From an uncultured Lachnospiraceae bacterium (GTDB lineage: Bacteria; Bacillota; Clostridia; Lachnospirales; Lachnospiraceae): a stretch of DNA of 64,000 nt. Position numbers and translations under genes: made by a program. The notes beneath the pieces were generated by a model, which did not search any database, was not told the DNA's origin, and saw only the letters and a list, made by a program, of their open reading frames with translations. The stretch covers positions 62,001 through 126,000 of the forward strand of contig CAOKOL010000005.1 of NCBI GenBank assembly GCA_948470335.1, written 5' to 3'. Positions 19,231 through 45,995 of this stretch are shown here, one piece after another (positions within the stretch are counted from its first letter, which is position 1; each line of letters begins with the position of its first letter).

Positions 19231-20031
19231 TTATATCCTGTTTTTATACTCCAGCCGAATCTTGTCGGCGATCAGGGCAATAAACTCTGAATTCGTCGGT
19301 TTTCCTTTTCCCGTATGGATCGTATAACCAAACAGAGCATCGATGGTATCCATCTTCCCTCTGTTCCAGGCTACTTCTATGGCATGGCGGATCGCCCGCT
19401 CCACCCTGCTTGGCGTCGTCTGGTTTTTCTTTGCCACAGTCGGATAAAGGACCTTCGTAATAGAATTCAGCATCTCCACATCCTGCACTGACAGAATAAT
19501 GGCTTCCCGCAGATACTGATATCCCTTAATGTGGGCCGGAACGCCAATCTCATGGATCATGGCGGTCACATCATTCTCCAGATTCCGTTCCACATAGCTT
19601 TCCCTGGCCTCCGCATAGGGGATCGCCTTAATTTCCTTCTGCACCTGTCTCGTCGGTTCCATGAGAGATTTGATCTGACTCACTACCGTCTCCTGGTTCA
19701 ACGGCTTCATCATATAATACACCGCTCCCAGCCGAAACGCGTCCTCAGTCATCCGCTCGGACCCCACTGCCGACATGACAATAAATTCCGGCCTTTTTTT
19801 AATGGTCTGATCCTCATTGACCTTTGACATCAGCATCAGCCCATCCAGTTTCGGCATGATCAGATCCAATAGTACAACATCCGGTTGTTTATGACGAATA
19901 ATATCATAAACATCCTTTCCATTTGACGCCTTACCTACAACGTTTACATCGTTCTCCTTCGACAATACATCATCCAGCATCTGAACAATTCTTTCATTGT
20001 CGTCCGCAATCGCCACATTAAGCTTTGCCAC
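19231..20031 (-). CDS. spo0A: Sporulation master regulator Spo0A
   Basis: This response regulator of about 266 residues has a receiver domain with acidic pocket D10/D11, phospho-acceptor D56 (VVLLDLIMP) and the conserved Lys in MMKPL. The C-terminal Spo0A DNA-binding domain includes [19 protein letters not shown] and the recognition helix [15 protein letters not shown], essentially diagnostic. GTG at 20031 is preferred over GTG at 20040, because AAGGAG lies eight bases before the former and overlaps the latter. Phosphorylated Spo0A binds TTTGTCGAAA-type boxes to start sporulation. A sigma-A promoter (20079-20107) lies upstream; two direct ATTGTGCGT repeats and a 0A-like box are nearby. Confidence 0.98.
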
Positions 20032-20078
20032 TTTCCTCACTCCTTTTCCACTATTTTACATGTTTTTCAGGTAAAAAC

Positions 20079-23108: not shown

Positions 23109-23342
23109 ATGTCACAGACCGCACCGCAACCCAAAACCATCTATGAATATGCATCCGGCTACTGCCGGGTACTGGACAATCACAGACTTGTGGAATGTAC
23201 TTTATTCCAATACCCGGACGGCCGCAGAACTCTGGAAGAAATGGACTGTGATTTCGGCCAGTGCCCCAACCACATCGACTGCATCATCGCAAAAGCCGCC
23301 CGGGAAATGGAACAGTCCGGAACAGAAAACACCCCGGATTAA
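23109..23342 (+). CDS. Small Cys-containing protein of unknown function
   Basis: A 77-residue protein that I do not recognise. An excellent AAAGGAGG precedes the ATG by about nine bases and a promoter lies upstream, so it is very likely expressed. There is no signal peptide or membrane helix. It has five Cys (C19, C30, C47, C52, C58); DCDFGQCPNHIDC gives C-x4-C-x5-C, which could bind metal. The C-terminal tail is acidic and polar. Its stop overlaps the stop of the convergent pncB gene by two bases, with no terminator between them. It is divergent from an atypical response regulator, which may control it. Confidence 0.7.
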   Translation: MSQTAPQPKTIYEYASGYCRVLDNHRLVECTLFQYPDGRRTLEEMDCDFGQCPNHIDCIIAKAAREMEQSGTENTPD

Positions 23343-24787
23343 TGCTCCTTTTTGTTCAGAAGACTTTCTTTTAAGTCGTACAGCTTTTTCGACAGATCTA
23401 CATAGTGGACATGAGGATTCTCAAAACGCTGTTCCTCCTCCCACACCGTATATTTCAATTGCTTGTTTACATGCTCTCTGATCTCCTCCAGCGTGGGAAG
23501 CTGATAAACCAGCTTTCCATCCTGGTAGATGGTCTTCTGCACTTTTTCCACCATAACATTGGTAAAAGTCATTTTCTTCCACGGCTTCTGAGGGTCCACA
23601 AAAGCAAACGGCGTCTCTCCGTCGATTTCCTCATCGCTCAGCGTGAGCAAGTCCGCATAGCCGAAACCGGTTTCTTTGTTGTAGATTCTCCACAGTGTCT
23701 TTTTACCCGGATTCGTCACCTTCTCCGGATTCTCGGAAATTTTAATTCTGGGCTCGTAGGTTCCGTCCGGCTGTTTTACCGCCACCAGCTTGTACACGCC
23801 GCCGAATACGGGATCTGATTTTGAGGTGATCAGACGCTCGCCCACACCGTAGGAATCAATCCTGGCCTCCTGGATATTCAGGGAATTAATCAGATATTCG
23901 TCCACGCTGTTGGACACCACGATCTGACAGTCCGTCAGTCCCGCGTCATCCAGCACTTTCCGCAGTTTTTTGGAAAAATACGCCAGATCCCCGCTGTCGA
24001 TGCGGACGCCTTTCAGCCGTTTTCCCATCGGCTCCAGCACCTCTTTTGCCGTGCGGACCGCATTGATTACGCCGCTCTCCAGAATATCATAGGTATCAAT
24101 CAGCAATGTGCAGGAATCGGGATAAACCTCCGCATAAGCCTTAAACGCTTCAAATTCCGTAGGGAAAAACTGCACCCAGGAATGGGCCATGGTTCCCACC
24201 GCTTTTACGCCGAACATCTGATCCGCCAGTACCGTAGCCGTTGCGCCCACGCCGCCGATATAGGCCGCTCTGGCCCCGTTGACAGCCGCATCCGCGCCCT
24301 GGGCCCTTCTGGCGCCGAATTCCATAATCGTCGCGGGTGCCGCCGCCCGGCAGATTCGGTTTGCCTTGGTGGCAATCAGCGTCTGATGGTTGACCGTCAG
24401 AAGCAGCATGGTCTCCACCAACTGCGCTTCTATCAGCGGCGCAGTCACCGTAACCAGCGGCGTGCCCGGATAGACAACGGTTCCTTCCGGCACCGCCTCG
24501 ATGGTTCCGGTAAAACGGAAATTTTTCAGATAATCCAGAAAGCCCTCGTCAAACATCTCCCTGCCGCGCAGATAGGCGATATCCGCATCGGTGAACTCCA
24601 TATGCTCAATATAGTCCACCAACTGTTCCAGACCGGCGCAGACGGCAAATCCCGCCCTATCCGGATTGCTTCTGTAGAACATGTCAAATACCACCGTAAT
24701 GTCTTTCAATCCCTTGACAAAATACCCGTTGGACATGGTCAGTTCATAAAAGTCCATCAGCATCGTCAGATTTCTTTTCTCGTTCAT
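23339..24787 (-). CDS. pncB: Nicotinate phosphoribosyltransferase
   Basis: This 482-residue enzyme makes nicotinate mononucleotide from nicotinate and PRPP with ATP, the first step of NAD salvage. Family signs are LTMLMDFYELTMSNGYF at the N-terminus, FDMFYRSNPDRAGFAV, EFGARRAQG, GTMAHSWVQFF, LLIDTYD, GVRIDSGDLAYFSKKLRKVLDDAG-type substrate-site motifs, and SYGVGERL. Length fits the NaPRTase family. AGAGGGG precedes the ATG. Its own promoter (25009-25037) is separated from the start by a leader of about 215 bases with a strong hairpin. Genes for other NAD steps are not nearby. Confidence 0.96.
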   Translation of the reverse strand: MNEKRNLTMLMDFYELTMSNGYFVKGLKDITVVFDMFYRSNPDRAGFAVCAGLEQLVDYIEHMEFTDADIAYLRGREMFDEGFLDYLKNFRFTGTIEAVPEGTVVYPGTPLVTVTAPLIEAQLVETMLLLTVNHQTLIATKANRICRAAAPATIMEFGARRAQGADAAVNGARAAYIGGVGATATVLADQMFGVKAVGTMAHSWVQFFPTEFEAFKAYAEVYPDSCTLLIDTYDILESGVINAVRTAKEVLEPMGKRLKGVRIDSGDLAYFSKKLRKVLDDAGLTDCQIVVSNSVDEYLINSLNIQEARIDSYGVGERLITSKSDPVFGGVYKLVAVKQPDGTYEPRIKISENPEKVTNPGKKTLWRIYNKETGFGYADLLTLSDEEIDGETPFAFVDPQKPWKKMTFTNVMVEKVQKTIYQDGKLVYQLPTLEEIREHVNKQLKYTVWEEEQRFENPHVHYVDLSKKLYDLKESLLNKKEH

Positions 24788-25075: not shown

Positions 25076-28000
25076 TCAAGCCGGCCGTTTTCGGACTGCC
25101 AGCCACAAAGCCGCTGACAAAAGCACCGTCAGCGCCGCCGCGCTTCCCCAAACCAGCCATGGCCTTTGGTACCACTGAATCAGCAGATTTTTCGTAATCA
25201 GAAAGGTTCTGCTGTCCGAGACGGTTTCATTCCCCGCGGCATCTGCCGCCTTTACATAAAGCGACTGCCAGTCATCCTCACTGCTGAGTGAAAAGGTTAC
25301 GATCCCGCCGGAAGCCGCCAGTTCTTCCTGATCAAAGGTATCAGCCAGCCTGCCATTCAGCCAGACTTCCGCACAGAGCAGAGACAGATTATCCCTGATG
25401 TCGATTGTCACGGTGCGGCCGGTATCATAATATCTGGCCTGATCCTCCACGCCTGTCACAACGACCGAAGGCGGCGCGGTATCCACGGCAAAGGCAATCT
25501 CTTTTTCCTTTATCCCGTTGCTGGAACGATTGGAGGCTTTGTCCTCGGAATAAATAGTAACCGTATAGAAGCCATCCTCCCGGAAATTTTCCGGGCCGAT
25601 CTCATAGGTATAAGCTTTCCAGCCCTCCTTGCTGTCAGACTGCGTTACCCTATAATCTTCCCCCTGACGCAGCCGGCAAAGCTCTCCGTCTCTGCCGCAG
25701 GTGATCTCGCGAAATTCAAGGGTATCCACATTGATTTCCGTCACGTTCAGACCGGTGGGACGATCAAGATAAAACCGGTCCAGCGCTTCCTGGGTTTTGC
25801 TGTCAAACAGATAGGCGGAACCGAAACGGTTCACGGAAAACAACAGGGTTTCCTCTGACACATTTCCGGCCAGATCTGCCGCCGAGACAGAAAGGGTATA
25901 GAGGTCATCCGTCTCTTTCGTTCTGGGAAAATCCTTATATCGGATCTCCTGCCCTCCCGGAATAGGTGTCCTTTCGGCTTCGGGGCTGACGGCGCCGTTC
26001 CTGGCGCCTGTCAGTCTGATCTCTGCGCCGTCCGGAGCCAGATTTTCGTCGGAATAGAGGACGTTCGGAGCCACCTCCTGATTATTGGCCGATTTGTCCC
26101 GGATATTTGTAATCTCCAGCCTGGGAGGTGTCAGATCAATTATAAAATGATCCTCCTCATACGCCCGGGCCTGATTTCCCGCCAAGTCCTGACAAGCAAT
26201 GTGAAAGGAAAATTCCCCGTCATAATCATACAGCACAAAAGCGCTGTGCCTGTCGGCGCTGCCGGTCCATCCGCTTATGGCAGGCGGCGCAATCTCCTCC
26301 CCTGCCCGCCGGGCGGTAATGGTAATCACCGCATCCTCAGGCTGAAAATTGCGCTCCGTAACCGTAATTACCGCCTGCCGCTGCCGGTTATAATACAGAC
26401 CATGAGCGGCATTTTGATTATCATAGACCACAGTTACCTCAGGCGGCGTACGGTCGATGATAAAAGGGGCGGCCTCTGTCCGCGCCGATTTGTTCCCGGC
26501 CCGGTCGGTACACTGAAAGGCCAGCGTATAATCACCGTCCTGCGCAAATGTCACTCTCATCTCATAGATACAGCCGTCCACATGGCCGCTTTCCTCCCCC
26601 GTACACCCGCTGCCCGGCACATGCCGCCATTCTCCCGTCTCCGGTTTCTCCCCGGAAGCCGTAATGAAAAGTTCTCCGTCCTCCGGGCGAAAACAGCGGT
26701 CTGTCACTCTGATCAAAGCCGTCCTTGCCTCCCGGTAAAATTTTTCATGGGCCGGATGATTCTGATCAAATGTAATTTCCACTGACGGCAAAAGGGTATC
26801 AATAACAAATTCCGCGGCGGCAGGCTCCTCTGCTTTCCATCCCGCAAGATCCTCCGCGGCACAGGTAAACTGCCAGGTTCCCTGTTCTTTAAACGTAACC
26901 GTATTCCTGTAAATTCCCTCCCCCTCATTCCGCCAGGAGCCATCCCAGCCGGCAGAGAGAATCCTGTGATCCTGACTGCCATAGCCCTGAATATTAAGCT
27001 TTGTCAGCGCAGGATCAAAATTTGCCTCCCTGACCGTTACCTGGACCGTCACCGGACCGTCATAAAATTTCTTTTCCCGGATTTCCCCGGTGATATCGGT
27101 GCCGTTATGGAGAAAAGTCACCTCAATCACCGGCTTTTTCGTATCCAGTACCAGATATTTGCTGGTAAATCTGCCCTCCGACACTTCCGCGCCTTCCATC
27201 AGGTTGCCGGAACGGTCCGCATACTCCGCGGAAAAACGGTAGATTCCGTCTTCGGACATGGAAAAAATACTTCTGTGTTCCTCCCCCTGATTTTCCCATG
27301 GACTCCTCTCAAGCGCCTTTGAAGCGCCGGCCGCCTGACAGTCGATCCGCATCCGGCGTCCGTCCTCCGGAAAAAAGTAACGCTCTCGAATGAATACGTC
27401 CACATTCCCGCCGTCCCTGTAAAAATAGGTATCCGGATACCCTTCATGCTCCGTATAGCTGCCCGGATGATAATCTACCTTCCATTCCGGCGGCCGGTTG
27501 TCCAGAATATAACGGACACTGTCGCCAAGGGGCGCGGCCGAAGCCGGCGCGGTATTTCCGGCATTGTCATAAATTCGAATATCCTCAATCTGTTTTTCCG
27601 TCTCCGTCTGCTCAGGAATCTTCCAGTCAAGGTAAAAGACCGCTTCCAGATACGCCTTTCCTCCGATCTCTGCCCTCCCGGTCTGCGGGCCGATGCTTTT
27701 TACCAGCGTTTCCCTTTTTCCGTCATGGTTCACCGTAACCGATATTTTCTGAATTCCTGAGGAGATCCTGCCGGGTTCCGCCTGATACATCCCTTCCCGC
27801 AGTTCATCCCGGACATACAGCTTCAAAGCCGTATGATCCCTGCCGTAAACCGCGCCCCTGCCCGGCATCTGATAGCGATGCGCCGTCAGTTCGCCGTACC
27901 CGCTGTTTTCCGGGCTGTCTTTCGGGTTGTCTATCAAGTTGTCTTTCAGACTGTCCTTTCCGCTCTCAGTTATGCTGTCTGCCTTTTCCTGTTTTAGATA

Positions 28001-30403
28001 TCTGTGTTCTTCCGCTTCCTGATCCGGTTCAGGATCATTTTCATTCCCATCTCCATGATCCCACTGAATCAGCACCGTTTCCCGGGGTGCTCCGTTGTCG
28101 ATGCGGACCCTGCTGCCCTGGCCGCCCGATTCGTCGGTACAGAAAAACGCCCGGTTTCCCGCCCAGTCTGTCACCTCTGCCCCATACAACTGATCCTGAT
28201 CCTGCAAAAAAGTCTCACTGTGAGAGAATGACCTGACCGCCTCATCCGGATTCGCCGTCCCGCCGATCAGCAGACTGCCCTCCGGCTGATTTTCGCCGTC
28301 TGTTTCCCCCTTTAAGGCATACCACCTGATTGAGGAAATACCAAAGGCATCCTCCGCCGTGGCACAAATGGTTTTTCCCCTTCCGTCCGCGGCGGAATAC
28401 CATCCGGTCAGTTCGCTGCCGTCTGCCGTTCTGACATGATTTTCTCCGGCTGTCGTGCGGAATACGCCTTCTTCCGGCTGTGCCGGACTTTTTTTATCCA
28501 CCACAATCGTCAGGCTGCCAAGCCCTTCCTGCGTGTATGGACAGACCGTCACATTCCCGGCATTGTCCGTTATGCGGACAGCCCTGCATTCATAGACCGT
28601 TTCTTCACCTTCCGCCCCGGTCAGAGTCAGCCGGCAGACCCCTTTGCCCTTTTCGGGAAGGGAAAACCTCTGCTCGCCCCGGCTGGTCATCAGCACAGCT
28701 TCTTTCAGGCCGGACGCCTTTGTATCCGGCGCTTCCGGAAGATCTTCTGCCGTAACGGCCACCCTGACGTCCGTACCGCTGACCAGCTTCCCGTTCACCA
28801 TATGATCCCGATCTGTCAGCGCCTGATCCTGAACCGGCGCCTCCTCCTGATATTTTACATTGGAAAAACAATACGTCACATTGGGCGCGCCGCCGGACTC
28901 CGTAATCACGGCAGGCTGATTGTCAATATTTACCCGGCTGCCCTTATTTTCCGAAATATCCCCGTTCCAAATCAGTCCTGTGGCATTTCCGGCCCAGTCA
29001 ATGGCTCTGACAGCATATAATTGTGTCTGCGGCGACTGAAACAGAGCGGTGCCCGATAAAGGAGTCTGGCCAAAGGCACCCGAAGTCTGTTCCGGCACTG
29101 TCATCATCTTTCCGGGCTGTTCCGCCGTCAGAGGACCTTGGATCACCTTTCCCTCCTCGTCTGTCATATACCATTGCATGGAATAAATCCCATGCCGGTC
29201 CCGGGCATTGGCAGTGATGCGCAGCGCCTGCCCCCGGGCGGATGCGGAATACCATTCCAAAACCCCCTCCCGGTTTTTCGCCGAATATGCCTCGTCCAGA
29301 AAATCCACTTCCGGTACTTTTCCGTCCACCGCGATGGTTTCCGGAGCCAGATCCGCGCCAAACCGGTAAACTGTCCGGTTCCCCGCCCGGTCCGTTATCT
29401 CCAGCGTTTCCGGATGGTATGCTGTCTCCTGTCCCGGCAGAACAGGCAACTGAAAACAGTAACGCCCCTCCCCATTTTCTTCCTCCGGCTTCCTGACCGG
29501 ATCGTAGTTCTGCCCGTTTACTTTTAATATTACGGTTTCAATTCCCGACCCGGAAATTTCCTTTTCCGGTATGACATTTTCCGAGACGCTCCCTTCCAAA
29601 TCGTTTTCCTTTGCAGTATTATCCGCCCAAGAAGCATTTTTTTCATTCTGATCCGCCTCTAAAGTGTCCGGTTCTTTTTCATCCGCCCCGGTTCTTCCGG
29701 TTCCGTCTCTGACCTCCACAGTCAGGACAACGGCCGTCCGGCTGAGCAGGGTTTCCCGGAACAGATAATCGCCGATCTGACTTTCCTGTACCCGGTCCCC
29801 GCCGGATATTTTCTCATATGCCGCATTTGCAAACTGATAATAAACCGCCGGGTGCCCGTCCCGTGTCTCAATTACGGGGCCCGTCTCGTCGATTCTGACT
29901 TCCACGGCCTCCGACCTTGCCTCACATCCCGCCTGATCTTTTACGACAACGACATAGGACTGACTCTGATCTCCCCGCTTTGCGGCCCCCTCTCTGTTAT
30001 AAACCCAGCTTCCAAAAGAGACCTGCCCGTCCGTCACAAGGACATTCTCCTTTTGGTCCGATATGCTCTCCTGTTCTTCCTCCGCCGCCACGCAATAGAC
30101 AGAAGCAGTCAGCTCCCTGTCCGCGTCGCAGTCTTCCACCGTAACCATAAATTCAAACTGTGCCTCCCCTCCCCGATACCAGTAATCTTCTTTCCCCGTC
30201 CCATTCCATTGAACACGGATTTTCGGAGGCTTCAGGCCATTCTCCGAAACACTGCCGTCAGAACCGCTGCCGGACTCCGCATCAGCAGCATCCTGAGCTG
30301 TTTTTACCAAAATACGGCCTTTCTGCGCCTCTGCCCCAAAAGGCGTCAGAAAAAACAACATCAGCAGCAGCGCCGTCAGAAACATTCCCTGTCTTTTTTT
30401 CAA
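25076..30403 (-). CDS. Giant cell-surface protein with about twelve Ig-like modules
   Basis: This 1775-residue protein starts at TTG 30403 with AGGGG upstream. A signal peptide (MKKRQGMFLTALLLMLFFLTP, ending AEA) leads into an array of bacterial Ig-like modules. Nearly every module ends in D-x-A-G-N or a close variant: DRAGNR, DWAGNA, DNAGNV, DWAGNR, DNAGNT, DRSGNL, DLAGWK, DRAGNK, DLAGNQ, DLAGNV, DKASNR, DAAGNE. A C-terminal helix (LVWGSAAALTVLLSAALWLAV) and the basic RKRPA end anchor it in the membrane; no LPXTG is seen. It probably spans the wall as an adhesin, sensor or scaffold. It is last in the PP2C-kinase operon, so phosphorylation may control its export or partners. Confidence 0.85.
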   Translation of the reverse strand: MKKRQGMFLTALLLMLFFLTPFGAEAQKGRILVKTAQDAADAESGSGSDGSVSENGLKPPKIRVQWNGTGKEDYWYRGGEAQFEFMVTVEDCDADRELTASVYCVAAEEEQESISDQKENVLVTDGQVSFGSWVYNREGAAKRGDQSQSYVVVVKDQAGCEARSEAVEVRIDETGPVIETRDGHPAVYYQFANAAYEKISGGDRVQESQIGDYLFRETLLSRTAVVLTVEVRDGTGRTGADEKEPDTLEADQNEKNASWADNTAKENDLEGSVSENVIPEKEISGSGIETVILKVNGQNYDPVRKPEEENGEGRYCFQLPVLPGQETAYHPETLEITDRAGNRTVYRFGADLAPETIAVDGKVPEVDFLDEAYSAKNREGVLEWYSASARGQALRITANARDRHGIYSMQWYMTDEEGKVIQGPLTAEQPGKMMTVPEQTSGAFGQTPLSGTALFQSPQTQLYAVRAIDWAGNATGLIWNGDISENKGSRVNIDNQPAVITESGGAPNVTYCFSNVKYQEEAPVQDQALTDRDHMVNGKLVSGTDVRVAVTAEDLPEAPDTKASGLKEAVLMTSRGEQRFSLPEKGKGVCRLTLTGAEGEETVYECRAVRITDNAGNVTVCPYTQEGLGSLTIVVDKKSPAQPEEGVFRTTAGENHVRTADGSELTGWYSAADGRGKTICATAEDAFGISSIRWYALKGETDGENQPEGSLLIGGTANPDEAVRSFSHSETFLQDQDQLYGAEVTDWAGNRAFFCTDESGGQGSRVRIDNGAPRETVLIQWDHGDGNENDPEPDQEAEEHRYLKQEKADSITESGKDSLKDNLIDNPKDSPENSGYGELTAHRYQMPGRGAVYGRDHTALKLYVRDELREGMYQAEPGRISSGIQKISVTVNHDGKRETLVKSIGPQTGRAEIGGKAYLEAVFYLDWKIPEQTETEKQIEDIRIYDNAGNTAPASAAPLGDSVRYILDNRPPEWKVDYHPGSYTEHEGYPDTYFYRDGGNVDVFIRERYFFPEDGRRMRIDCQAAGASKALERSPWENQGEEHRSIFSMSEDGIYRFSAEYADRSGNLMEGAEVSEGRFTSKYLVLDTKKPVIEVTFLHNGTDITGEIREKKFYDGPVTVQVTVREANFDPALTKLNIQGYGSQDHRILSAGWDGSWRNEGEGIYRNTVTFKEQGTWQFTCAAEDLAGWKAEEPAAAEFVIDTLLPSVEITFDQNHPAHEKFYREARTALIRVTDRCFRPEDGELFITASGEKPETGEWRHVPGSGCTGEESGHVDGCIYEMRVTFAQDGDYTLAFQCTDRAGNKSARTEAAPFIIDRTPPEVTVVYDNQNAAHGLYYNRQRQAVITVTERNFQPEDAVITITARRAGEEIAPPAISGWTGSADRHSAFVLYDYDGEFSFHIACQDLAGNQARAYEEDHFIIDLTPPRLEITNIRDKSANNQEVAPNVLYSDENLAPDGAEIRLTGARNGAVSPEAERTPIPGGQEIRYKDFPRTKETDDLYTLSVSAADLAGNVSEETLLFSVNRFGSAYLFDSKTQEALDRFYLDRPTGLNVTEINVDTLEFREITCGRDGELCRLRQGEDYRVTQSDSKEGWKAYTYEIGPENFREDGFYTVTIYSEDKASNRSSNGIKEKEIAFAVDTAPPSVVVTGVEDQARYYDTGRTVTIDIRDNLSLLCAEVWLNGRLADTFDQEELAASGGIVTFSLSSEDDWQSLYVKAADAAGNETVSDSRTFLITKNLLIQWYQRPWLVWGSAAALTVLLSAALWLAVRKRPA

Positions 30404-30418
30404 CCTTTTCCCCTCCCG

Positions 30419-30694
30419 TCATCCGTCTGTCCTCTCATCCGTATGAACAACCATAATATCCCTCTCAATCACAAACGCCTCTCTTTTTGCTTCTTTTCCG
30501 CTTCCTTCAATCTGCCGCAGCCACTTTCTGACCGCCATGCCGGATTCCAGTGCAAAAATATCGGGAATATCAAACAGAAAAAATTCCGCCAGCGCCGCCG
30601 CCAGAAACAGCGCCGTAAATACCAGCGCCCCGATCCGGGCCGTGTGCAGCATCTGTGCCTGATCCCCGCCGTATATTCCAATCATAACCGTCAT
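30419..30694 (-). CDS. Small single-pass membrane protein in the kinase operon
   Basis: This 91-residue protein is not from a family I recognise. One strong helix (about 21-45, ARIGALVFTALFLAAALAEFFLF) is followed by a polar tail with IPDIFALESGMAVRKWL and a basic-acidic stretch. AAAGGAG lies eight bases before ATG. Its stop is 15 bases from the start of the giant Ig-like gene, whose ribosome binding site begins within that gap. The position between a membrane Ser/Thr kinase and a surface protein makes it a candidate kinase substrate or assembly factor. Confidence 0.65.
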   Translation of the reverse strand: MTVMIGIYGGDQAQMLHTARIGALVFTALFLAAALAEFFLFDIPDIFALESGMAVRKWLRQIEGSGKEAKREAFVIERDIMVVHTDERTDG

Positions 30695-30780
30695 ATCGTC
30701 GGCTCCTTTCTTTTCGTCTCAAGTCTGCACAATTCAATGGCTCCAAACTCCGGTTTTTCCGCAATTCCGCTATGTACCAT
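30691..30780 (-). CDS. Possible 29-residue peptide linking kinase and membrane-protein genes
   Basis: A short frame, MVHSGIAEKPEFGA and on to KRKEPTI, fills the gap between the kinase stop and the 91-residue gene. Its TGA overlaps the ATG of the next gene (ATATGA), a common coupling pattern. The upstream AAGGA is ten bases from ATG, so the start signal is weak. It could be a real small protein or only a coupling leader. No family is recognised. Confidence 0.3.
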   Translation of the reverse strand: MVHSGIAEKPEFGAIELCRLETKRKEPTI

Positions 30781-30815
30781 ATCTGATCCGTCCTTATTTC
30801 CCTACTGCCGGTCAT

Positions 30816-32501
30816 TCATTCTTCTTTCCGCACCCGAAAAGCCGCCTCCACCTGTCTGGCCGCCTGCTCCAGATCCGACAGCAGGGCTTCTTTCAGCAGC
30901 CGGTTTCTCTCCTGATTCCCGTCTTCCGGAATCACTATCTCCGTCACAAGCCGCTTCCTGACCGCTTCCAGCTCATTTAGCATCTCCTGTTTCTCCACCC
31001 CTGCTTCATGAAACAGAGACGCACAGCGGTAAATCTGATACGCCAGCTCTCTGTACACCATCATAGCCGTGGTAATATTATCTTCTCCGGCAATATCCCC
31101 TGCCGCCAGTTCTGTCAGATCCTCCCAAAAATCACGGTAACTGACCGCCGCATCTCCCGCCTTATTCGCCATGCCGATTTTTCCGTAATATTCGGCAATC
31201 TGTCCCAGCTTCCGGGCCCGCAGACTCATATGGGATTCCAACGTCCGGCCCTGGGAGGCAATGCGCAGCCATTTTAAAGCCATCCCCTTATTTCCGTTTT
31301 TCTCATAGGAATAAAAGTAGGCCAGTCCCAGACGGTACGCCAGCATTTCATATCCTTTTTTATTTTCCGCCAGCGACTGTTCATGGGAAATACTCCCCGA
31401 ACCGGCATCGTTCAAAATACGGCGCAGTTCCTCATCCTCTTTCACCGTCAGATTATCATCTGCCAGAAAGATCCGGTCCAGCAGCAGCAGATATGCCTCC
31501 TGTCTCGCAGGAGCAATGGAAATGGCTTTTTCATAATAATCAAAAGATTCCAGAGGCGCGGCGCAGCTCTCGGCCGCCAGAATACAGGCTTCATATGTAT
31601 TGGCCCGCACATGCCGCTCTCCAAGCCAAAGGCCCAGCGCTGCCATACCGCACAGAAGGGCAAGCCCTGCCGTGGCGAAAAACAGAAACAGCTTTCTCCT
31701 GCGCTGCCTGCGGCTTCTTCTGTCAATCCGGTCATAGTGCTCCAGATCATAAAGCAGTTGGCTGCAGGACTGATATCGGTCCTCTTTTTGCACCTGGGTA
31801 CATTTTAAGATAATGCCCTCCAGCCCCTGTGAAAGAGCCGGATTGATCTCCGTAATCGGCCGCAGACCATGGGGATCCGCGCCGGTCAGCAGTTGGAACA
31901 GCATCACGCCAAAACAGTAAATATCCGTCCGGGCATCGCTTTTTCCTTTCTCCTCATACTGTTCCGGCGCCGCATATCCCCTGGTTCCCAGTGATACGGT
32001 ATCTTTGATTTTTTCCGGCCTGTACTCTTTTGCCGCGCCGAAATCAATCAGAGCGATCTCCTCACCGTCCGGTTTCAGCATCACATTGGCCGGTTTCATA
32101 TCCCGGTATATCACGGCAGGTTCCCGGTTATGGAGATAAAACAGCACGTCGCAGATCTGCCTGGCCCATTTCACCACCTGCGTCTGGGGCTGAGGACCCT
32201 GCTCCTTCAAAATCTCCTCCAGCGATCTTCCTTCTATATAATCCATTACGATCAGCAGAGAATCCCCATGCTCAATCACATCGGCGATGGCCGGCAGATT
32301 CGGATGTTTCAGCCGCCGCAACATCTCAATCTCTTTTCTGTCCGCCTCCAAGTCTACCCCCTGCCCTTTTTGCACTTCCTTGATCGCCCAGGGTCTGTTC
32401 GCCCGCTCATTGATCGCCAGATAGACCACGCTCATACCGCCTCTGCCGATCACGCTCAGTATCTTATAATTTCCGGCCACCACAGAACCGATCTCTAACA
32501 T
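30816..32501 (-). CDS. Membrane Ser/Thr protein kinase (PknB/Hanks type without PASTA)
   Basis: This 561-residue kinase starts at ATG 32501 with GGAGG close upstream; the longer frame has no start signal. The kinase domain (about 12-260) has the Gly loop GRGGMSVV (19-26), catalytic K41, IYRDMKPAN with D134 (Tyr in place of the usual His), DFG 153-155 and an activation loop with TVSLGTRGYAAPE. One helix is at about 271-293. The outer or distal part (300-561) is helical with TPR-like segments rather than PASTA repeats. The PP2C phosphatase gene lies just upstream, giving the usual kinase-phosphatase pair. Downstream genes encode membrane and surface proteins, the likely output. Confidence 0.93.
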   Translation of the reverse strand: MLEIGSVVAGNYKILSVIGRGGMSVVYLAINERANRPWAIKEVQKGQGVDLEADRKEIEMLRRLKHPNLPAIADVIEHGDSLLIVMDYIEGRSLEEILKEQGPQPQTQVVKWARQICDVLFYLHNREPAVIYRDMKPANVMLKPDGEEIALIDFGAAKEYRPEKIKDTVSLGTRGYAAPEQYEEKGKSDARTDIYCFGVMLFQLLTGADPHGLRPITEINPALSQGLEGIILKCTQVQKEDRYQSCSQLLYDLEHYDRIDRRSRRQRRRKLFLFFATAGLALLCGMAALGLWLGERHVRANTYEACILAAESCAAPLESFDYYEKAISIAPARQEAYLLLLDRIFLADDNLTVKEDEELRRILNDAGSGSISHEQSLAENKKGYEMLAYRLGLAYFYSYEKNGNKGMALKWLRIASQGRTLESHMSLRARKLGQIAEYYGKIGMANKAGDAAVSYRDFWEDLTELAAGDIAGEDNITTAMMVYRELAYQIYRCASLFHEAGVEKQEMLNELEAVRKRLVTEIVIPEDGNQERNRLLKEALLSDLEQAARQVEAAFRVRKEE

Positions 32502-32610
32502 TCCGCCTCCCTGCACACACCTCACCGGACAGCCCGGCATCTTTTTCCATTCCGGAGAAACCCGCACAGCTCCGTCGACCCGCCGCTCTGAAAAAACAGC
32601 GAACCCCCCG

Positions 32611-33384
32611 TCACACCGCTTTTACCGCAATCACCGAAATATTATCCGTCTCCCCTCTGGCTTTATCAAGCTCCGTCATCCTGACGCAAGCCATCTTAAG
32701 ATCCGCTTCCCGCGCCATCGCCGAAGGACAAAAGGCCTGCATCAGCTCCTCCTTAGAAATTTCATGGCGGAATCCGTCGCTGCAGAGCAGATACACGCCG
32801 CCTTTTCGGACAGTGCCGCGAATAAAAGCAGGAACAGGCCTGCCGCCTGCGCCGATACTCTGCAGCAGCACATTCCGCCGGCTGTCCGACTCCGCTTCCT
32901 CCTTTGTCAGACGCCCCTGCTCCACTTCCCGTTCCGCAAGGGTCTGATCCCTGGTCAACTGCCGGATTCCTCCGTCAAGCTCATACACACGCCCGTCGCC
33001 CACATGGACAATATAATAAACGCCGCCCGCAAATAACATGGCCGTCGCCGTCGTCCCCACGGCGATTCCATGTCTCCGGCCATAGGCGCCGATGGCTTCG
33101 GCTTCCTGTTCCAAAATCGCTGTCCAGGCCGCCAGCACCCCGGCTTCCCGTTTTTTCTGTCCTTTTTTCAGCAATGCCGGAAGCTCCTGCCGGAACCACC
33201 GGGCAAACCGCCGGATTACGGAAGCGCTGGCCACCTCACCTTTTTCCAGGCCGCCCATTCCGTCGCACAGAACGGCCAGCACGGCCCGTTCCCCTTTCAG
33301 GCATCCTGACTGGAGTAAAAGAGAGTCCTGATTGACCTGCTTTACCCTTCCGGTATCCGTGTGATAAGACAACAAATATTTCAT
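32611..33384 (-). CDS. PP2C-family Ser/Thr phosphatase
   Basis: This 257-residue cytoplasmic phosphatase starts at ATG 33384, with GAGGAAAGG upstream; the ATG at 33414 lacks a binding site. The metal-binding motifs are VNQDS (D20), LCDGMGG (D41), VGDGRVYEL, LLCSDGF and the final TDNISVIAV. These define the bacterial PrpC/Stp family, which removes phosphate from Ser/Thr targets and from the partner kinase. It is the first gene of the kinase operon, with a promoter at 33555-33583 and a leader of about 165 bases. The kinase follows after a 109-base gap. Confidence 0.95.
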   Translation of the reverse strand: MKYLLSYHTDTGRVKQVNQDSLLLQSGCLKGERAVLAVLCDGMGGLEKGEVASASVIRRFARWFRQELPALLKKGQKKREAGVLAAWTAILEQEAEAIGAYGRRHGIAVGTTATAMLFAGGVYYIVHVGDGRVYELDGGIRQLTRDQTLAEREVEQGRLTKEEAESDSRRNVLLQSIGAGGRPVPAFIRGTVRKGGVYLLCSDGFRHEISKEELMQAFCPSAMAREADLKMACVRMTELDKARGETDNISVIAVKAV

Positions 33385-33554
33385 CTGCCTTTCCTCACAT
33401 GAACTTTGTTTCATTTTCTCTGTAATTTACTTTGCTGCCAATCGTAATCGGAAATCTACTGCGAAACGCAGTTTAAAGAAATAGAATGACCGAAATCATC
33501 CGACCCTGAAATGTCAAATATCCGTTAAAGATTCTCTAAATCCGACCTGTCCCT

Positions 33555-38482: not shown

Positions 38483-40693
38483 TTATTTCCCGCTGCCTTT
38501 TCCTGTTCGTTTCACCCATCCGGACAGCCGCTCTCTGTTCCGATATCCCAGAAGCCCCAGAAAAGCCCCGATCGTAACGGCATAACCGACCCAGAAAATT
38601 TTCTTCCCCACAAACTTCACGGTAATCACCTGCTCCTCAGGGGAAGCCGGCAGATTCACGCGGATTCGGTTGTTGCTGCCGGTCGCAACGGGCAGCCGCT
38701 GTCCCTGTTCGTTAAAGGCGCCGTATCCGGGATAATTAAAAATCGGCACGTCCATATACTGCCCCTCCTGCTGACAGAGCAGGCGAATTTCCGCCCGGTT
38801 TCCCTCCAGCGTATAATCGATGATACTGACCTTCGATTCGTCGGACTCATACACCCAGCGGTTCAGATCGCCGAAGTCCGTATCCCTTATAAAATACTCT
38901 TTGACCGTGGCCACCATAGGCGTACCCGGCGGATAGGTCTTCCGCTCATTGGCAAAGGTGGTCACTATGGTCTGCATCGTAATCAACGCCGCCAGAAACA
39001 AAACACACGTCATCTGGGACGCATACTTTTTCAGCAGACCGCTTTCATACAGCCAGCCCACACCGGAAAACACCAGACAGGCATGGGCAATCACCAGGAA
39101 ACGGTAGGGAAACTGAATGGTTTCCGTCACCTGATCGATAAAGTGGATGCGCTTCAACAATTCCCAGGGAACAATATTCGTAATCAGCAGCGTAAATATA
39201 ACGCCGCAGGCTGCCAGAACCGCCAGATACCCCTGCCTGCGGTCCTTATTTTTCTGTGTCAGCGAACCGATAATGCCAAACACCATACAGAGCAGGCCCA
39301 CCGGCCCTAAGCTGTTTGTCTGCGGCCCTCTGCTGGAAGCGACTCTGGGCGTATGAATCTGAAACAGCTCCGTCACGTACTGGACTGTTTTCATCCACCA
39401 TCCGCCGTCATACATCGCACTTTCCAGATCCAAATTTCCCTGCATATAATAAACCACAAAGGGAATCAGGTACCACGCGTTAAAAACCGCCACACAGCCA
39501 AGTATTTTCAGCAGCTCTTTCCACCGCTTTTCCTTAAAGAAAACGTCTGCATAAAACAGCCCTGCCGTAACGGAAAAAATACTGACCATGATGCAGCTTA
39601 ACATATGGCTTTGCAGCAATCCGCTGTAAGCGACGGCCAGATACCACCATTTCTTTCTGTCGCCCACAAGCAGCTCATAAAGCCCCAGAACCACCAGCGG
39701 CAGAAACATCATCGCCGTCACCTCTCCGAAAGCGGAACGCATCCACATGGAGCTGCCTACCCGGTACAGTCCTGTCATATAAAGCACGGCGATCAGCAGC
39801 GGAACAGATTTATGTTTTCCCAGCAGTTTTCTCGCCGTTATATACGCCATCCAGCCCGTACCCAGATTCACGGCACACATCAGCGACTTGTAACAAAACT
39901 CCACGGTAACCCCAAACATCCGCAGAATCGCCGCCGGATAAATAAACAGGTTGGGATACAGTGCCTGCAGGTACCCGTAGCTGTTAACCGCATACGGATA
40001 AACGTATACCGGAAACTGCCCGTTCAAAAGACCGTCTTTAATCCCCTGAATTTTATAGGCATGGTATGACATGTCATAGCTCCGGAATAAATCCGGCCTG
40101 AGGTAAGGCGCGCTCACCAGAAAGCCGGCTGCCGTAATCACCACTATGGCCGCAGCCGTTTCCTGAGAAACTTTTCCTTTATTGAAAAACAGAAGATAAT
40201 AAAGGAGAAGAGCCAAAAGCGTCATCATCACCGCCAGAAAAACGTAATCATTGTTCAGCGGCCGGTCGCTTCCCACCTCCATGCCGCCTATGGTCACTGT
40301 CCCGGCCGCGCCTTTCTCCACATGCATCCGAAAATCCGTGGAATCCCGTTCCAGGCTGACCGGTATGCCCAGAGAAGCCGGAGTTTGTGTGACGGGCAGC
40401 TCCACCGACGCAAACTCTCTTTCATAAGCCTCCACCACCAGCCTGCTTCCCGGCGCGCTGGCCGTGTAATCAACCACAGCCACATAATCGCCCTTATTCA
40501 GAGAATAATACGCGGTGGTCAGCATACGCCCTTCCAGCCCGTCGCCCGCCGCATACCGACCCTCCTGTTCCTCGCCCAATTCGACGGTCCAATAATCATG
40601 GGCGAATATAAAACGCCGGTTTGTAAAATGATGCCCCAGCATTCCCGCGATAAACAGAACGCTGAACATAATAAACAGTATCCTCTGTTTCAT
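38483..40693 (-). CDS. Polytopic membrane protein of the PTPS-related/YfhO-like group, paralog 1
   Basis: This 736-residue protein has about 13 membrane segments. A first helix (1-20) is followed by an outer beta domain of about 120 residues (GRYAAGDGLEGRMLTTAYYSL). The helical core contains YDMSYHAYKIQGIKDGLLNGQFPVY, YGYLQALYPNLFIYP and VGDRKKWWYLAVAYSGLLQSH. An outer C-terminal domain with FNYPGYGAFNEQGQRLPV and TGSNNRIRV precedes a last helix. Proteins with this first-loop pattern are treated as GT-C-like or 6-pyruvoyl-tetrahydropterin-synthase-related membrane proteins. It probably handles lipid-linked sugars at the outer membrane face. It is the last of four paralogs; its stop abuts the tandem repeats. 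Confidence 0.75.
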   Translation of the reverse strand: MKQRILFIMFSVLFIAGMLGHHFTNRRFIFAHDYWTVELGEEQEGRYAAGDGLEGRMLTTAYYSLNKGDYVAVVDYTASAPGSRLVVEAYEREFASVELPVTQTPASLGIPVSLERDSTDFRMHVEKGAAGTVTIGGMEVGSDRPLNNDYVFLAVMMTLLALLLYYLLFFNKGKVSQETAAAIVVITAAGFLVSAPYLRPDLFRSYDMSYHAYKIQGIKDGLLNGQFPVYVYPYAVNSYGYLQALYPNLFIYPAAILRMFGVTVEFCYKSLMCAVNLGTGWMAYITARKLLGKHKSVPLLIAVLYMTGLYRVGSSMWMRSAFGEVTAMMFLPLVVLGLYELLVGDRKKWWYLAVAYSGLLQSHMLSCIMVSIFSVTAGLFYADVFFKEKRWKELLKILGCVAVFNAWYLIPFVVYYMQGNLDLESAMYDGGWWMKTVQYVTELFQIHTPRVASSRGPQTNSLGPVGLLCMVFGIIGSLTQKNKDRRQGYLAVLAACGVIFTLLITNIVPWELLKRIHFIDQVTETIQFPYRFLVIAHACLVFSGVGWLYESGLLKKYASQMTCVLFLAALITMQTIVTTFANERKTYPPGTPMVATVKEYFIRDTDFGDLNRWVYESDESKVSIIDYTLEGNRAEIRLLCQQEGQYMDVPIFNYPGYGAFNEQGQRLPVATGSNNRIRVNLPASPEEQVITVKFVGKKIFWVGYAVTIGAFLGLLGYRNRERLSGWVKRTGKGSGK

Positions 40694-40715
40694 CTTATAC
40701 TTGTTCCCCCTGCTT

Positions 40716-42917
40716 TCATCCTGGATTTCGTTTCTGTCTTATTTTGTTTCCCAGCCGGCGCAGCCTCTTCCGGTTCAGATAACCCGCCGCCCAGCATACC
40801 GCCGCCAGCGTCACCCCGTAACCGACCCTGAAAATGTCCTCGCCCGCAAACCGTACCGTAATCTCCTGCTCATGATCCGAAGGAGAGAGCGCTACCCGGA
40901 CCCGGCTGTTGCTGCCGGTTTCAACGGGAAGACGGCCGCCGTCCCCGCGAAAAGCCTGATATCCCGGATAGTGAAACATAGGCGCCTCAATATATTGCCC
41001 CTCCTCCCGGCATGTCAGCCAGACCGTCGCCTTAGAGGGTTCCAGAACATAATCCCGGATCACCACCTTTTCCTCGTCGGAACTATAAATATAGCGGTTA
41101 TAATCCGTATTATCCGCCCCTGCCGGAATATATTCCTCGGCAATCAGAACCAGCGGCCTGTCAGGCGGCGTAACTTTTCCGTAGCTGGCTGTCAGATTCA
41201 CGATCTCCCACATCGGCAGCACCGCGGCCAGTACCAGAACGCTGCAGACTGCCGAACGATATCTGACCAGAGCCTTCGTCTCAAACAGCCATCCCACCCC
41301 TGCCAGTAAAAAACAGAGGGTGGTAAAGACAAGAAAACGCCAGGGAAACTGCATTGTCTCCGCAATCCAGTCAATCACTGCCAGCTCTCTTAACTGTTTC
41401 CACGGAACCAGATTTGTCATCAGCACCGTAAAAATCACGCCGGCTGCCAGCAGCACGGACAGAAATCTCTGCTTCTGATTTTTGTTTCTGTTTACCAGCA
41501 CGCCCACGATCCCCGCCGTCATGCAGATCATCCCTGCCGGTCCTATGGTGTTGCTCCTCCATCTGTAGGTTCCGGGAAGTCCGGACACATAGCTCTGAAA
41601 CAGCTCGGCCACATCCATCACATGAATAAACCAATCCTTATGCAGCTTCGAAAGATTTAGATCCAGCCCCATATAGACGACAAAGGGAATCAAAAACCAT
41701 GCGTTAAAAGCCAGAAGACAGCCGATCACTTTTAACAGCTCAATCCACCTTTTTTCCTTAAAAAACACATCCACATAAAAAAGCCCTGTGAGAACGGAAA
41801 AAATCAGAACCATCAGACAGCTCAGGACATGACTCTGAATCAGCCCGCTGTAACCCACCGCCAGATACCACCATTTCTTCCGGTCCCCTGCCAGCAGCTC
41901 GTACAGTCCCACCGCAATCAACGGCAGAAACATCATTGCAATCAGTTCTCCCGCCGCGCCGCGCACCCACAGATTTGTTATTCTGTAGGGCGCTGTCAGG
42001 TAAAGAAACGCAAACAAAACAGGCGCCTGTCTGTGCTGCCCGATCAGCCTTTTGGAACACCGGTACGCAATCCATGCGGTCCCCAGATTCACGGCAAACA
42101 TCAGAGATTTATAGCAGGCGGCCGCAGACACGCCAAGCATCCTGAGAAACGCCGCCGGATATATAAATAAGCTGGGATAAAGCGCATTGAGATAGCCATA
42201 CCCGTTAAAAGTATGGGGGAAAAAGTAAACGGGAAACTGTCCGCTTTTTATGGCATCCCTGATTCCTTCTATTTTATAGGCATGATACTTCACATCGTCC
42301 GCAGAATAAAAACCGTTCCGAAACATCGGGGCGCTGATCAGAAAGCAGACCGCAAGAAGGAGCATCCCGTCCAGAACTGTCTCCGGCGGAATCCGCCCGT
42401 TGTTGATAAAGATCAGATAGTAAAGTCCGGCCAGCAAAAGCGCCGCCACAACAGCCAGATAAGTATAATCCTGACTGACCGGTTTATCACCGGTAATATC
42501 AATCTCCCACACCACCAGAGAGCACTCCGCAGGTTTACTGATATACAGACGGAAATCCACGCAGTCTTTCTCAAGGCTTACCGGCACTTCCACCGTATCC
42601 ACAGCTTCCCCGGCAGGCAGCTCCACTGTCATAAACGGACTCTCCGAAGTCTCCACAACCAGCATTGCTCCCGGAGCGGAGGAATGAAATTTTACGGCCA
42701 CCCTGTAGTCGCCCTGATCCAGAGAGTAATAAAGTGTTTCCAGAACCCTTCCTTCCGTCCCTTCGCCGGCCGTCAGAACGCCGTTCTCAATACTGCTTCC
42801 GGACTGCGCGCTCCACCGGTCTTCATCGCAGAGAATCGTATGGTTTGTGACGTTGTGCGCCAGGATACAGTAGATCAGCCCTATGCCAATGCAAAGAAAT
42901 ACGACTCTCAATCTCAT
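40716..42917 (-). CDS. Polytopic membrane protein of the PTPS-related/YfhO-like group, paralog 2
   Basis: This 733-residue protein has the same plan as its neighbours: N-terminal helix, outer beta domain (GVLTAGEGTEGRVLETLYYSLDQG), multi-helix core with DDVKYHAYKIEGIRDAIKSGQFPVYFFP and YGYLNALYPSLFIYP, and a C-terminal FHYPGYQAF/TGSNSRVRV domain. It is most like paralog 3, with near-identical stretches such as ILAHNVTNHTI and DQGDYRVAVKFHSSAPGA, so this pair is a recent duplication. The start overlaps the stop of paralog 3 (ATGA), so they are co-translated. Function is presumed glycan transfer or flipping; no direct evidence. Confidence 0.75.
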   Translation of the reverse strand: MRLRVVFLCIGIGLIYCILAHNVTNHTILCDEDRWSAQSGSSIENGVLTAGEGTEGRVLETLYYSLDQGDYRVAVKFHSSAPGAMLVVETSESPFMTVELPAGEAVDTVEVPVSLEKDCVDFRLYISKPAECSLVVWEIDITGDKPVSQDYTYLAVVAALLLAGLYYLIFINNGRIPPETVLDGMLLLAVCFLISAPMFRNGFYSADDVKYHAYKIEGIRDAIKSGQFPVYFFPHTFNGYGYLNALYPSLFIYPAAFLRMLGVSAAACYKSLMFAVNLGTAWIAYRCSKRLIGQHRQAPVLFAFLYLTAPYRITNLWVRGAAGELIAMMFLPLIAVGLYELLAGDRKKWWYLAVGYSGLIQSHVLSCLMVLIFSVLTGLFYVDVFFKEKRWIELLKVIGCLLAFNAWFLIPFVVYMGLDLNLSKLHKDWFIHVMDVAELFQSYVSGLPGTYRWRSNTIGPAGMICMTAGIVGVLVNRNKNQKQRFLSVLLAAGVIFTVLMTNLVPWKQLRELAVIDWIAETMQFPWRFLVFTTLCFLLAGVGWLFETKALVRYRSAVCSVLVLAAVLPMWEIVNLTASYGKVTPPDRPLVLIAEEYIPAGADNTDYNRYIYSSDEEKVVIRDYVLEPSKATVWLTCREEGQYIEAPMFHYPGYQAFRGDGGRLPVETGSNSRVRVALSPSDHEQEITVRFAGEDIFRVGYGVTLAAVCWAAGYLNRKRLRRLGNKIRQKRNPG

Positions 42918-45109
42918 AAATGTATATCCCTCCGGTTTCCGAGCCGCCGCAGCCGTTCTCTGTTACAATAGACAGCCGCCCATATCACTGCTGCCAGCGT
43001 AATGCCATAGCCGACCCGGAAAATATCCTCTCCCGTAAACCGCACCGTAATCTCCTGTACCTCCGAAGACGGAGAAAGGGGAACCCTGACCCGGTTGTTG
43101 CTGCCGGTTTCCGTAGGCAGTCTTGTTCCATTCCGGTCAAAAGCCTTATATCCCGGATAATGAAACATCGGCGCCTCTATGTATTGCCCTTCCTCCCGGC
43201 AGACAAGCCAGACCGTAGCTTTCGAGGTTTCCAGTATATAGTCCTGAACCTCTACCTTTTCCTCATCTGAAAGGTAGATCATCCGTTTAAAATCCGTATA
43301 GTCCGATCCCGCCATCACATATTCAGGCGCCCTTGAAACAAGGGGTCTGTCCTGGGGCGTATAACCCCCTCTGCGCGCCGTCTCATTCACAATATCCCAC
43401 ATGGACAGCACCGCCGCCAGCAACAGAAGCGCGCAGACCATCGGGCGGTATCCGTCCAGCTTTTTATTCTGATACAGCCACTCCACACCCGCCAGCAGCA
43501 GACAGAGACTGACAAAGGCGAGAAAACGCCAGGGAAACTGCATCGTCTCCGTAACCCAGTCAATCAGCGCCGACTGCTTTAACAACTCCCAGGGCACCAG
43601 ATTTGTCATCAGCACCATGAAGATCAGGCCGCAGAAAAACAAAACCGACAAAAATTTCTGTCTTTTATCTTTTTTTCTCTGTGACACGATGCCGGCGGCT
43701 CCCAGGATTAAACAGATTGTCCCCGCAATTCCCAGACTGTTGCTCCTCCAGAAATATCTGCCGGGCAGTCTTCCTATATGGCTCTGGAAGATCTCGGCCA
43801 GAGCCATGGAATGATCATACCAGTCCATCTGCAGCTTCGATAAATCCAGATCCAGCCGCATATACACAAGAAACGGAATCAGATACCAGGCATTAAAAGC
43901 CAGCAGACATCCAATCACTTTCAGAAGTTCAATCCATCTCTTCTCTTTCAAAAAAACATCCGCATAAAATATACCCACCGCAACCGAGAACATCAGCACC
44001 AGCAGACAACTGAGTACATGGCTCTGAATCAGGCCGCTGTAGCCGATCGCCAGATACCACCATTTCTTCCGATCCCCCGCCAGCAGCTCATATAAGCCCA
44101 CGGCAACCAGCGGCAGGAAGGCCATAGCCAGCAGTTCCCCCGCCGCAGACCGAACCCACAGATTGTTGATCCTGTAAGGCGCCAGCACCCAGAGCAGGGC
44201 AAATAAAAGAGGCGCCCATCTGCGCTCCTTTCCGAGCAGCCGTTTCGCCGCCCAGTACGCGATCCAGGCCGTCGCCAGACTCGCCGCAAAAAACAGCGTT
44301 TTATAGCAGGTCATCGAAGACACACCCAAGATCCGCAGTAAAACAACCGGATAGAAAAACATGTTTGGGTAAAGTGCGTTCAGATAACCATATCCGCTGA
44401 ACACATATGGAAGGAAATATACCGGAAACTGACCGTTTTTGATGCCGTCCCGCATTCCTTCTATTTTGTATATGTGATATCGCTGATCGTCTCCGTCATA
44501 CATGCCGGTTCGGAACATTGGTGCGCTGATCAGAATACAAACAGCAAGCAGCAATAAAACCGAAAAAACCGTTTCCGGCGAAATATGGTTCCGATTGAGA
44601 AAAATCAGATAATAAAGCAAAGCTAAAACTATCGCCGACACCACGGCCAGGTAAGTATAATCCTGATTCACCAGTCCCTCACTGGTAATGTCAATCTCCC
44701 ATATGACTAACGCGCCTCCTATCGGTTTATTAATATACAGACGAAAGTCCACACTGTCCCTATCAAGGCTGACCGGAATCTCCAGCTCCTTTATTCCTTC
44801 TCCGGCAGGCAGCTCTACCGTCATAAGAGGACAGTCGAAGGTTTCCACGTTCAACTCCGCTCCAGGGGCGGAAGAATGGAATTTCACGGCAACCCTGTAG
44901 TCACCTTTATCCAGAGAATAATAAAAAGTTTCCATAACCCTTCCTTCCGCTCCTTCAGCGGCCGTCAGAACACCGTTCTCAACGCTGCCTCCCGACAGGC
45001 CGCTCCATCTGTCCGAATCGCAGGGAATCGTATGATTTGTAACATTATGCGCTAAAATACAGCAAATAAATCCGATGCTGAAAAAAAGGAACAGCATTTT
45101 CAGTTTCAT
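42914..45109 (-). CDS. Polytopic membrane protein of the PTPS-related/YfhO-like group, paralog 3
   Basis: This 731-residue protein starts at ATG 45109 with GGAGGAG ten bases upstream; the longer frame would run into the divergent amidase gene. The core has GDDQRYHIYKIEGMRDGIKNGQFPVYFLP (split here by the charged loop), YGYLNALYPNMFFYP and GDRKKWWYLAIGYSGLIQSH. The C-terminal outer part carries FHYPGYKAFDRNGTRLP and TGSNNRVRV. It is the first gene of the three-gene block 38483-45109 and is divergent from the amidase. Its closest relative is paralog 2. Role in the locus is as for the other paralogs and equally unproven. Confidence 0.75.
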   Translation of the reverse strand: MKLKMLFLFFSIGFICCILAHNVTNHTIPCDSDRWSGLSGGSVENGVLTAAEGAEGRVMETFYYSLDKGDYRVAVKFHSSAPGAELNVETFDCPLMTVELPAGEGIKELEIPVSLDRDSVDFRLYINKPIGGALVIWEIDITSEGLVNQDYTYLAVVSAIVLALLYYLIFLNRNHISPETVFSVLLLLAVCILISAPMFRTGMYDGDDQRYHIYKIEGMRDGIKNGQFPVYFLPYVFSGYGYLNALYPNMFFYPVVLLRILGVSSMTCYKTLFFAASLATAWIAYWAAKRLLGKERRWAPLLFALLWVLAPYRINNLWVRSAAGELLAMAFLPLVAVGLYELLAGDRKKWWYLAIGYSGLIQSHVLSCLLVLMFSVAVGIFYADVFLKEKRWIELLKVIGCLLAFNAWYLIPFLVYMRLDLDLSKLQMDWYDHSMALAEIFQSHIGRLPGRYFWRSNSLGIAGTICLILGAAGIVSQRKKDKRQKFLSVLFFCGLIFMVLMTNLVPWELLKQSALIDWVTETMQFPWRFLAFVSLCLLLAGVEWLYQNKKLDGYRPMVCALLLLAAVLSMWDIVNETARRGGYTPQDRPLVSRAPEYVMAGSDYTDFKRMIYLSDEEKVEVQDYILETSKATVWLVCREEGQYIEAPMFHYPGYKAFDRNGTRLPTETGSNNRVRVPLSPSSEVQEITVRFTGEDIFRVGYGITLAAVIWAAVYCNRERLRRLGNRRDIHL

Positions 45110-45971: not shown

Positions 45972-45995
45972 TTTCTTCCCCGTCCCCAAAGACGA

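Follow-up and report, generated by a model that had tools for sequence, protein, structure and literature searches.

The four minus-strand genes at 25076–33414 of the window (the whole 64,000-nucleotide stretch that was analysed, G000:C5:62001-126000, from an uncultured Lachnospiraceae bacterium) form a real operon, and we put at about even odds that it is a stand-alone transmembrane receptor-kinase module, that is, the F-D-H-I part of the T7SSd/e systems existing without a T7SS and relaying its signal in trans. Its large Ig-like protein is more likely an input or co-receptor of the kinase than a phosphorylated output, since the cytoplasmic tail of this protein consists of the five residues RKRPA, without Ser or Thr, and all the rest lies outside. 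The parts are known from T7SSd/e; what is new is that they occur where no T7SS was detected, that the kinase and the stem of the Ig protein pair nearly one to one, that the Ig protein has a constant stem and a variable tip, and that small proteins and FHA proteins have a docking motif in common.

Operon layout, phosphatase and kinase

From 5′ to 3′, the genes encode a PP2C phosphatase (32611–33414), a membrane Ser/Thr kinase (30816–32501), a 91-aa protein with one transmembrane (TM) segment (30419–30694) and a 1775-aa Ig-like protein (25076–30403), all on the minus strand, and successive genes are separated by 109 nt (measured to the kinase start as revised below), 121 nt and 15 nt. Consensus scans place an extended −10 promoter-like site (TTGTAA-17-TATGAT with TG, 33583–33555) upstream of the phosphatase gene, preceded by a terminator-like hairpin (33727–33709) between the operon and the upstream heavy-metal ATPase gene, which fits a single operon. 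A sequence-only reading of this DNA had described five genes running in one direction with short gaps from one promoter; the shared strand, the short gaps and the promoter-like site stand, but the genes number four. The fifth candidate, an 81-aa ORF at 30570–30815, lies partly over the 91-aa gene in a different frame, and homologues were found only for the 91-aa frame. The kinase almost certainly starts at the ATG at 32501 (MLEIGS...) and not at the GTG at 32567: the N-termini of nearly all homologues read MLEIGS or differ from it only slightly, and a GGAGG lies just upstream.

Several neighbours in the window can be mentioned here. Directly downstream of the operon, 23339–24787 probably encodes a nicotinate phosphoribosyltransferase, judging by its sequence, and a promoter-like site of its own lies at 25037–25009. 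A Spo0A-type regulator is located at 19231–20040 (Spo0A_C, E = 1.9e-45), and on the minus strand at 38483–48264 there are three similar polytopic membrane proteins of 736, 733 and 729 aa among glycosyltransferase-type genes, one of which has a weak YfhO match.

The phosphatase at the operon head (267 aa, TseF-type), already named in the sequence-only reading, matches PF13672 with E = 2.5e-13 and the NCBIfam Stp1 family with E = 1.9e-44, the latter under the equivalog cut-off of that family. The kinase (561 aa, TseD-type) carries a Pkinase domain (PF00069, E = 4.6e-47), whose catalytic residues K41, E57, D134, N139 and D153 are invariant in a 25-sequence alignment, followed by one TM segment and a 267-residue extracytoplasmic domain (30816–31619). 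The AF2 model of this ectodomain is all-helical (pLDDT 94.4, pTM 0.88), and its best match in the VIA comparison is to LGN TPR domains over ~220 residues, with Z ~10.5, a size common among helical repeats. Since helical repeats often reach such Z values, and the VIA matches include 14-3-3 as well as TPR proteins, the modelled fold is claimed as a class only, namely TPR-like; Foldseek against the PDB gave no match at E ≤ 0.001. At this level of fold class, the TPR-like distal part that had been read from the sequence is confirmed.

The kinase had also been read as a non-PASTA kinase, which agrees with the searches: there is no match to PASTA repeats in it, and it scores 190 bits in the Stk1/PASTA equivalog model against a cut-off of 450, so that identity as a PASTA kinase is ruled out. 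The window operon resembles that of the PASTA kinases PrkC/PknB in having a single-pass Ser/Thr kinase together with a PP2C, but it differs in its TPR-like ectodomain, in lacking PASTA repeats and in its other neighbours. The same genome does have a PASTA kinase elsewhere, on contig C7, together with a PP2C and RsgA.

Relation to T7SSd/e and other systems

In the published description of T7SSd/e (PMC11217815, Microlife 2024), TsxF is the PPM, TsxD the membrane kinase and TsxJ a DUF6382-FHA protein; TsxH and TsxK each have one TM segment and a short unstructured cytoplasmic part; and TsxI is an Ig-like protein with a signal peptide and a C-terminal TM segment, predicted to span the envelope and perhaps forming a conduit or taking part in the recognition of targets. 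The window locus likewise has a PPM, a kinase with a helical ectodomain, a small one-TM protein and a large Ig-like protein with a Sec signal and a TM segment. By sequence it matches the TseF-TseD-TseH/K-TseI set (F-D-H/K-I) of T7SSe, the membrane kinase TseD, the PPM TseF and the large Ig-like TseI all being found in the window. The differences are that the locus has no TsxA, TsxC or TsxJ, that its small protein, which appears to be a minimal TsxH/TsxK-like family member, has only 91 aa, and that the set stands alone. Literature searches on FHA/Tad/T7SS phospho-regulation, DUF6382 and FHA motifs found, among the titles and abstracts listed, no paper on the module besides PMC11217815.

The T7SS itself was looked for in the whole genome G000, whose assembly is 93% complete. 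No WXG100 protein (TseA/TseA2) scored over the cut-off, and the search for the TsxC/TseC ATPase, an FtsK type with an N-terminal FHA domain, returned only a generic FtsK of ~1100 aa with E = 7e-22, while TsxC-positive genomes score below 1e-100; by these two results, key parts needed for membership of the window set in a T7SS were not found. TseJ was not found in the window locus either, the FHA proteins of G000 being confined to contigs C17 and C6. One explanation would be a genuine T7SSe whose locus is split, or only incompletely present in the assembly, in which the Ig protein is the envelope conduit for secreted WXG100/LXG substrates, a role proposed for TsdI in PMC11217815, and the kinase controls secretion. 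In two Lachnoclostridium loci (L084 and L086), PPM, kinase, a small protein of 71 or 77 aa, Ig protein, FHA protein and TsxC do lie in a single run, a WXG100 cluster is present in the sister species G002, and with 93% completeness a T7SS could lie on a missing contig, which also counts against the receptor model. On the other side, the same-genus genome G001 (84% complete) has no WXG100 over the cut-off and no TsxC, just as G000. Among the 34 genomes that contain a relative of either the kinase or the small protein, WXG100 occurs in 16, of which 15 have TsxC, and the other 18 have neither, several of them being 97–100% complete. Moreover, the association of WXG100 with the kinase is weak (15/35 kinase-positive against 40/165 other genomes of the family, p = 0.036), while that of the stem with the kinase is near absolute. 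A split T7SSe is thus considered improbable.

Besides T7SSe, Tad/Flp-type clusters of other genomes that contain a DUF6382-FHA protein, such as those at loci L061, L070 and L071, have at their ends the same kinase family, a PPM, a small protein and an Ig stem, but the window set has no adjoining Tad genes and its kinase falls in another large clade. Descent from the Tad-linked module is therefore not supported, as far as a tree made by a quick method with a midpoint root can tell. The T6SS threonine phosphorylation pathway, which is cited in PMC11217815, is similar in the way of working only: there, too, a membrane kinase, a phosphatase and FHA-phosphothreonine docking switch a surface machine. 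The window set differs from it in being Gram-positive, in its other ectodomain and its Ig rod, and in having no contractile system and no FHA protein in the operon.

Two other loci show further arrangements of such genes. At L164 (G002:C219, same genus as the window), several WXG100 genes come first, then a vWA-FHA protein (552 aa), a PPM and a 740-aa kinase, and after these about eight tandem lipoprotein-like TPR-type proteins with a common sequence like EKWQEQYDLGMRYLEEGSYEEAIVAFTAAIE. At L077 (C6:29001-49000 of G000, the genome of the window), the end of a Tad-type cluster contains a second kinase system with a DUF6382-FHA protein, a PPM, a 67-aa one-TM protein and a 1096-aa kinase with weak beta-propeller matches; surface proteins come after it, one of them with DUF285/LRR domains.

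The Ig-like protein and its pairing with the kinase

The Ig-like protein (TseI-type) matches Big_13 (E = 2.4e-23) and Big_3_3 (E = 6.4e-15), and a signal peptide is read at its N-terminus and a TM segment, followed by RKRPA, at its C-terminus; the 1775-residue surface protein of the sequence-only reading is thereby upheld. It is built as a constant membrane-proximal stem below a hypervariable distal part, which is a new point. The stem, i.e., the last 590 residues (25076–26848), is conserved in 49 homologues at ~29–43% identity; in total length these homologues range from 1093 to 2906 aa. Measured in blocks of 75 residues against close relatives, identity averages 36–54% in the stem and only 9–27% in the distal part (26849–30325). 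The AF2 model of the stem (pLDDT 90.2) contains five Ig-like domains, as counted from the strands, a linker and a TM helix, and its Foldseek matches are generic Ig-type folds only, including the Ig domains of PrgB and the extenders of RTX adhesins.

The kinase and the stem pair almost one to one, which is also new. With a profile cut-off of E < 1e-75, a full or nearly full stem was found in 38 of 200 genomes of the same family: in 31 of 35 kinase-positive genomes and in 7 of the 165 others (Fisher 2.5e-25). When a profile of the full kinase alignment was used, these 7 apparent exceptions, together with G088, which has a partial stem, turned out to carry the kinase 0.4–6.5 kb from the stem, and with this better profile the kinase is present in all 38 full-stem genomes. 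Conservation of the gene set in related genomes had been named as the check on the sequence-only reading, and separation of the kinase pair from the surface protein as its refutation. The set is indeed conserved, with a PP2C/PPM just upstream of the kinase at 89 of 104 related loci and an Ig protein near the kinase at 68–70 of ~84 (loci cut by a contig end left out), but kinase and Ig protein lie apart in a minority of loci. Such separation occurs in one small Lachnospiraceae clade, and in genomes such as G080, G108 and G222 the stem gene is away from the kinase in the same genome. The distant loci L053, L054, L056, L060 and L068 are reduced to kinase and Ig protein, without PPM or small protein, so kinase and rod appear to be the minimal unit.

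Pairwise distances of the kinase ectodomain and of the stem are correlated (Spearman 0.56; 0.49 by a second measure), and the partial correlation, given the catalytic-domain and PPM distances, is also 0.56; for the catalytic domain and the stem the value is 0.09 (second measure 0.07). This is supportive of pairing and not decisive, because both parts are outside the cell and the catalytic domain and the ectodomain of the same kinase barely correlate (0.05); the correlation could come partly from shared exterior exposure or clade structure.

Additional genes accompany the set in some loci. A second kinase of the family, with ~630 aa, follows the Ig gene in loci such as L091, L097 and L141, with which L090 is grouped. 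A protein of 145–170 aa with three to four TM segments often lies between the small protein and the Ig gene, as in the group of L039, L045, L050 and L052; the one example searched against Pfam had no match.

Proposed phospho-relay and its significance

The 91-aa protein, whose single TM segment had been noticed in the sequence-only reading, has no match in Pfam or NCBIfam, but it belongs to a family of small proteins found after related kinases elsewhere (family profile E = 4e-21), and the operon has no second small one-TM protein of this family. Its relatives have a characteristic motif in their cytosolic linkers: 99 small proteins contain T-x-[VILM]-L 262 times in total, where shuffled sequences give 16.8 ± 3.9. 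The consensus is [ED]-[EG]-T-[ETS]-[VL]-L, and Bacillus marasmi has 17 copies. The repeated form [ED]T[ET][VL]L is common to the FHA proteins as well; most FHA proteins of related loci carry the motif, often as ETTVL twice, in both the DUF6382-FHA and the signal-trypsin-TM-FHA types. Threonines followed by Leu at position +3 are among the known ligands of FHA domains, and the T-x-x-L repeats are likely to be the phospho-relay sites of the family. In PMC11217815, the cytoplasmic part of the small protein is called short and likely unstructured, and the motif is not mentioned in the accessible text. The signal-trypsin-TM-FHA proteins, located upstream of the PPM at L039, L042, L044, L045, L051, L052 and other loci, have double ETTVL/ETTLL-type motifs and would seem to couple a surface protease domain to phosphothreonine binding; the word "trypsin" does not occur in PMC11217815.

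The window 91-aa protein has no T-x-[VILM]-L motif. In the same genus, the small protein of G001 keeps a single TMPL site and that of G002 reads NRTMPLENEEK, and small proteins without the motif are also found at L047, L084, L086 and L111. This bears on the sequence-only reading, which took the surface protein and the 91-residue membrane protein as the apparent output of a possible phospho-controlled display or sensing system. In the corresponding output model, kinase and phosphatase would control how the Ig protein, as an adhesin, is displayed or assembled, and would do so by way of the 91-aa protein. The operon structure agrees with such an output role, as do the adhesin-like rod with its hypervariable distal part and the position of the 91-aa gene between kinase and rod; near its C-terminus the 91-aa protein also keeps a FVIERDIMVVHTDE segment similar to one found in many relatives. 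However, the Ig tail offers no Ser or Thr, the 91-aa protein lacks the T-x-x-L repeats of its family, and the distant loci do with kinase and rod alone. The direction from kinase to surface protein is thus probably wrong, and we regard control of adhesin display as unlikely, if slightly less so than a split T7SSe. The missing repeats and secretion genes, together with a kinase branch longer than that of its sister (0.65 against 0.36), could also mean that a T7SSe was lost and that the set is what remains of it, decaying and without a function today. Against this, none of the four frames is broken, not even the one of 1775 codons, the catalytic residues of the kinase are kept, G001 retains the same stand-alone set at only ~40–55% protein identity, i.e., over a long term, and other genera without T7SS keep the set too; decay is accordingly very improbable.

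For the receptor module, a partner in trans may be sought among the FHA proteins, which occur in 34 of 34 kinase-bearing genomes; the weight of this count may be small, as FHA proteins could be near-universal in the family owing to the commonness of Tad clusters. G000 has two DUF6382-FHA proteins, both in Tad-type clusters unlinked to the operon. The cluster on C6 includes a PPM of its own and a kinase other than that of the window; the FHA protein on C17 has the sites EETCVL and NATTIL, and no kinase gene adjoins it. Similar to the latter are the only FHA protein detected in G001 (DETCVL/DETRLL) and one of two in G002 (NETQVL), so a motif-bearing DUF6382-FHA protein, in a Tad-type cluster with no adjoining kinase, is common to all three species of the genus. 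This Tad-linked protein is proposed as the best candidate partner.

The receptor mechanism can then be pictured as follows. The secreted Ig protein would act as an envelope-spanning co-receptor, with the variable distal rod meeting the exterior, and the constant 590-residue stem and TM segment would engage the TPR-like ectodomain of the kinase at the membrane and change kinase activity. Kinases of the family would phosphorylate the threonines of [ED]-T-[ET]-[VL]-L in the small membrane scaffold and the FHA proteins; the phosphorylated proteins would dock via FHA domains and gather the output machine, namely a T7SS ATPase, a Tad pilus or a membrane trypsin-like protease, and the PP2C would reset the system. 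As the small protein here has lost its motif sites, relay in trans to the DUF6382-FHA protein of the unlinked C17 Tad cluster seems most plausible for the window operon. It counts against the receptor model that the operon itself, with a motif-free 91-aa protein, leaves the relay in this species unexplained, and that the FHA partner is unlinked.

A wider reading is tentative, and we consider it rather less probable than the receptor module in this operon: TsxF-D-H-I may not have originated as a secretion component; it may be a modular receptor-kinase system widespread among Bacillota, in which a TPR-ectodomain kinase reads an Ig rod with variable tip and constant stem and signals through a multivalent ETxVL/FHA phosphothreonine code. 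Such a system could be coupled to T7SS, to Tad pili or to a membrane protease or, as here, work in trans. If this is right, the role assigned to kinase and Ig protein in the new T7SS subtypes would shift from a secretion conduit to a sensor that does without secretion, and ETxVL repeats and FHA domains would form a phospho-code that the accessible text of the published description does not mention. The module would then represent a receptor class common in gut Lachnospiraceae, hypervariable outside and conserved at its base.
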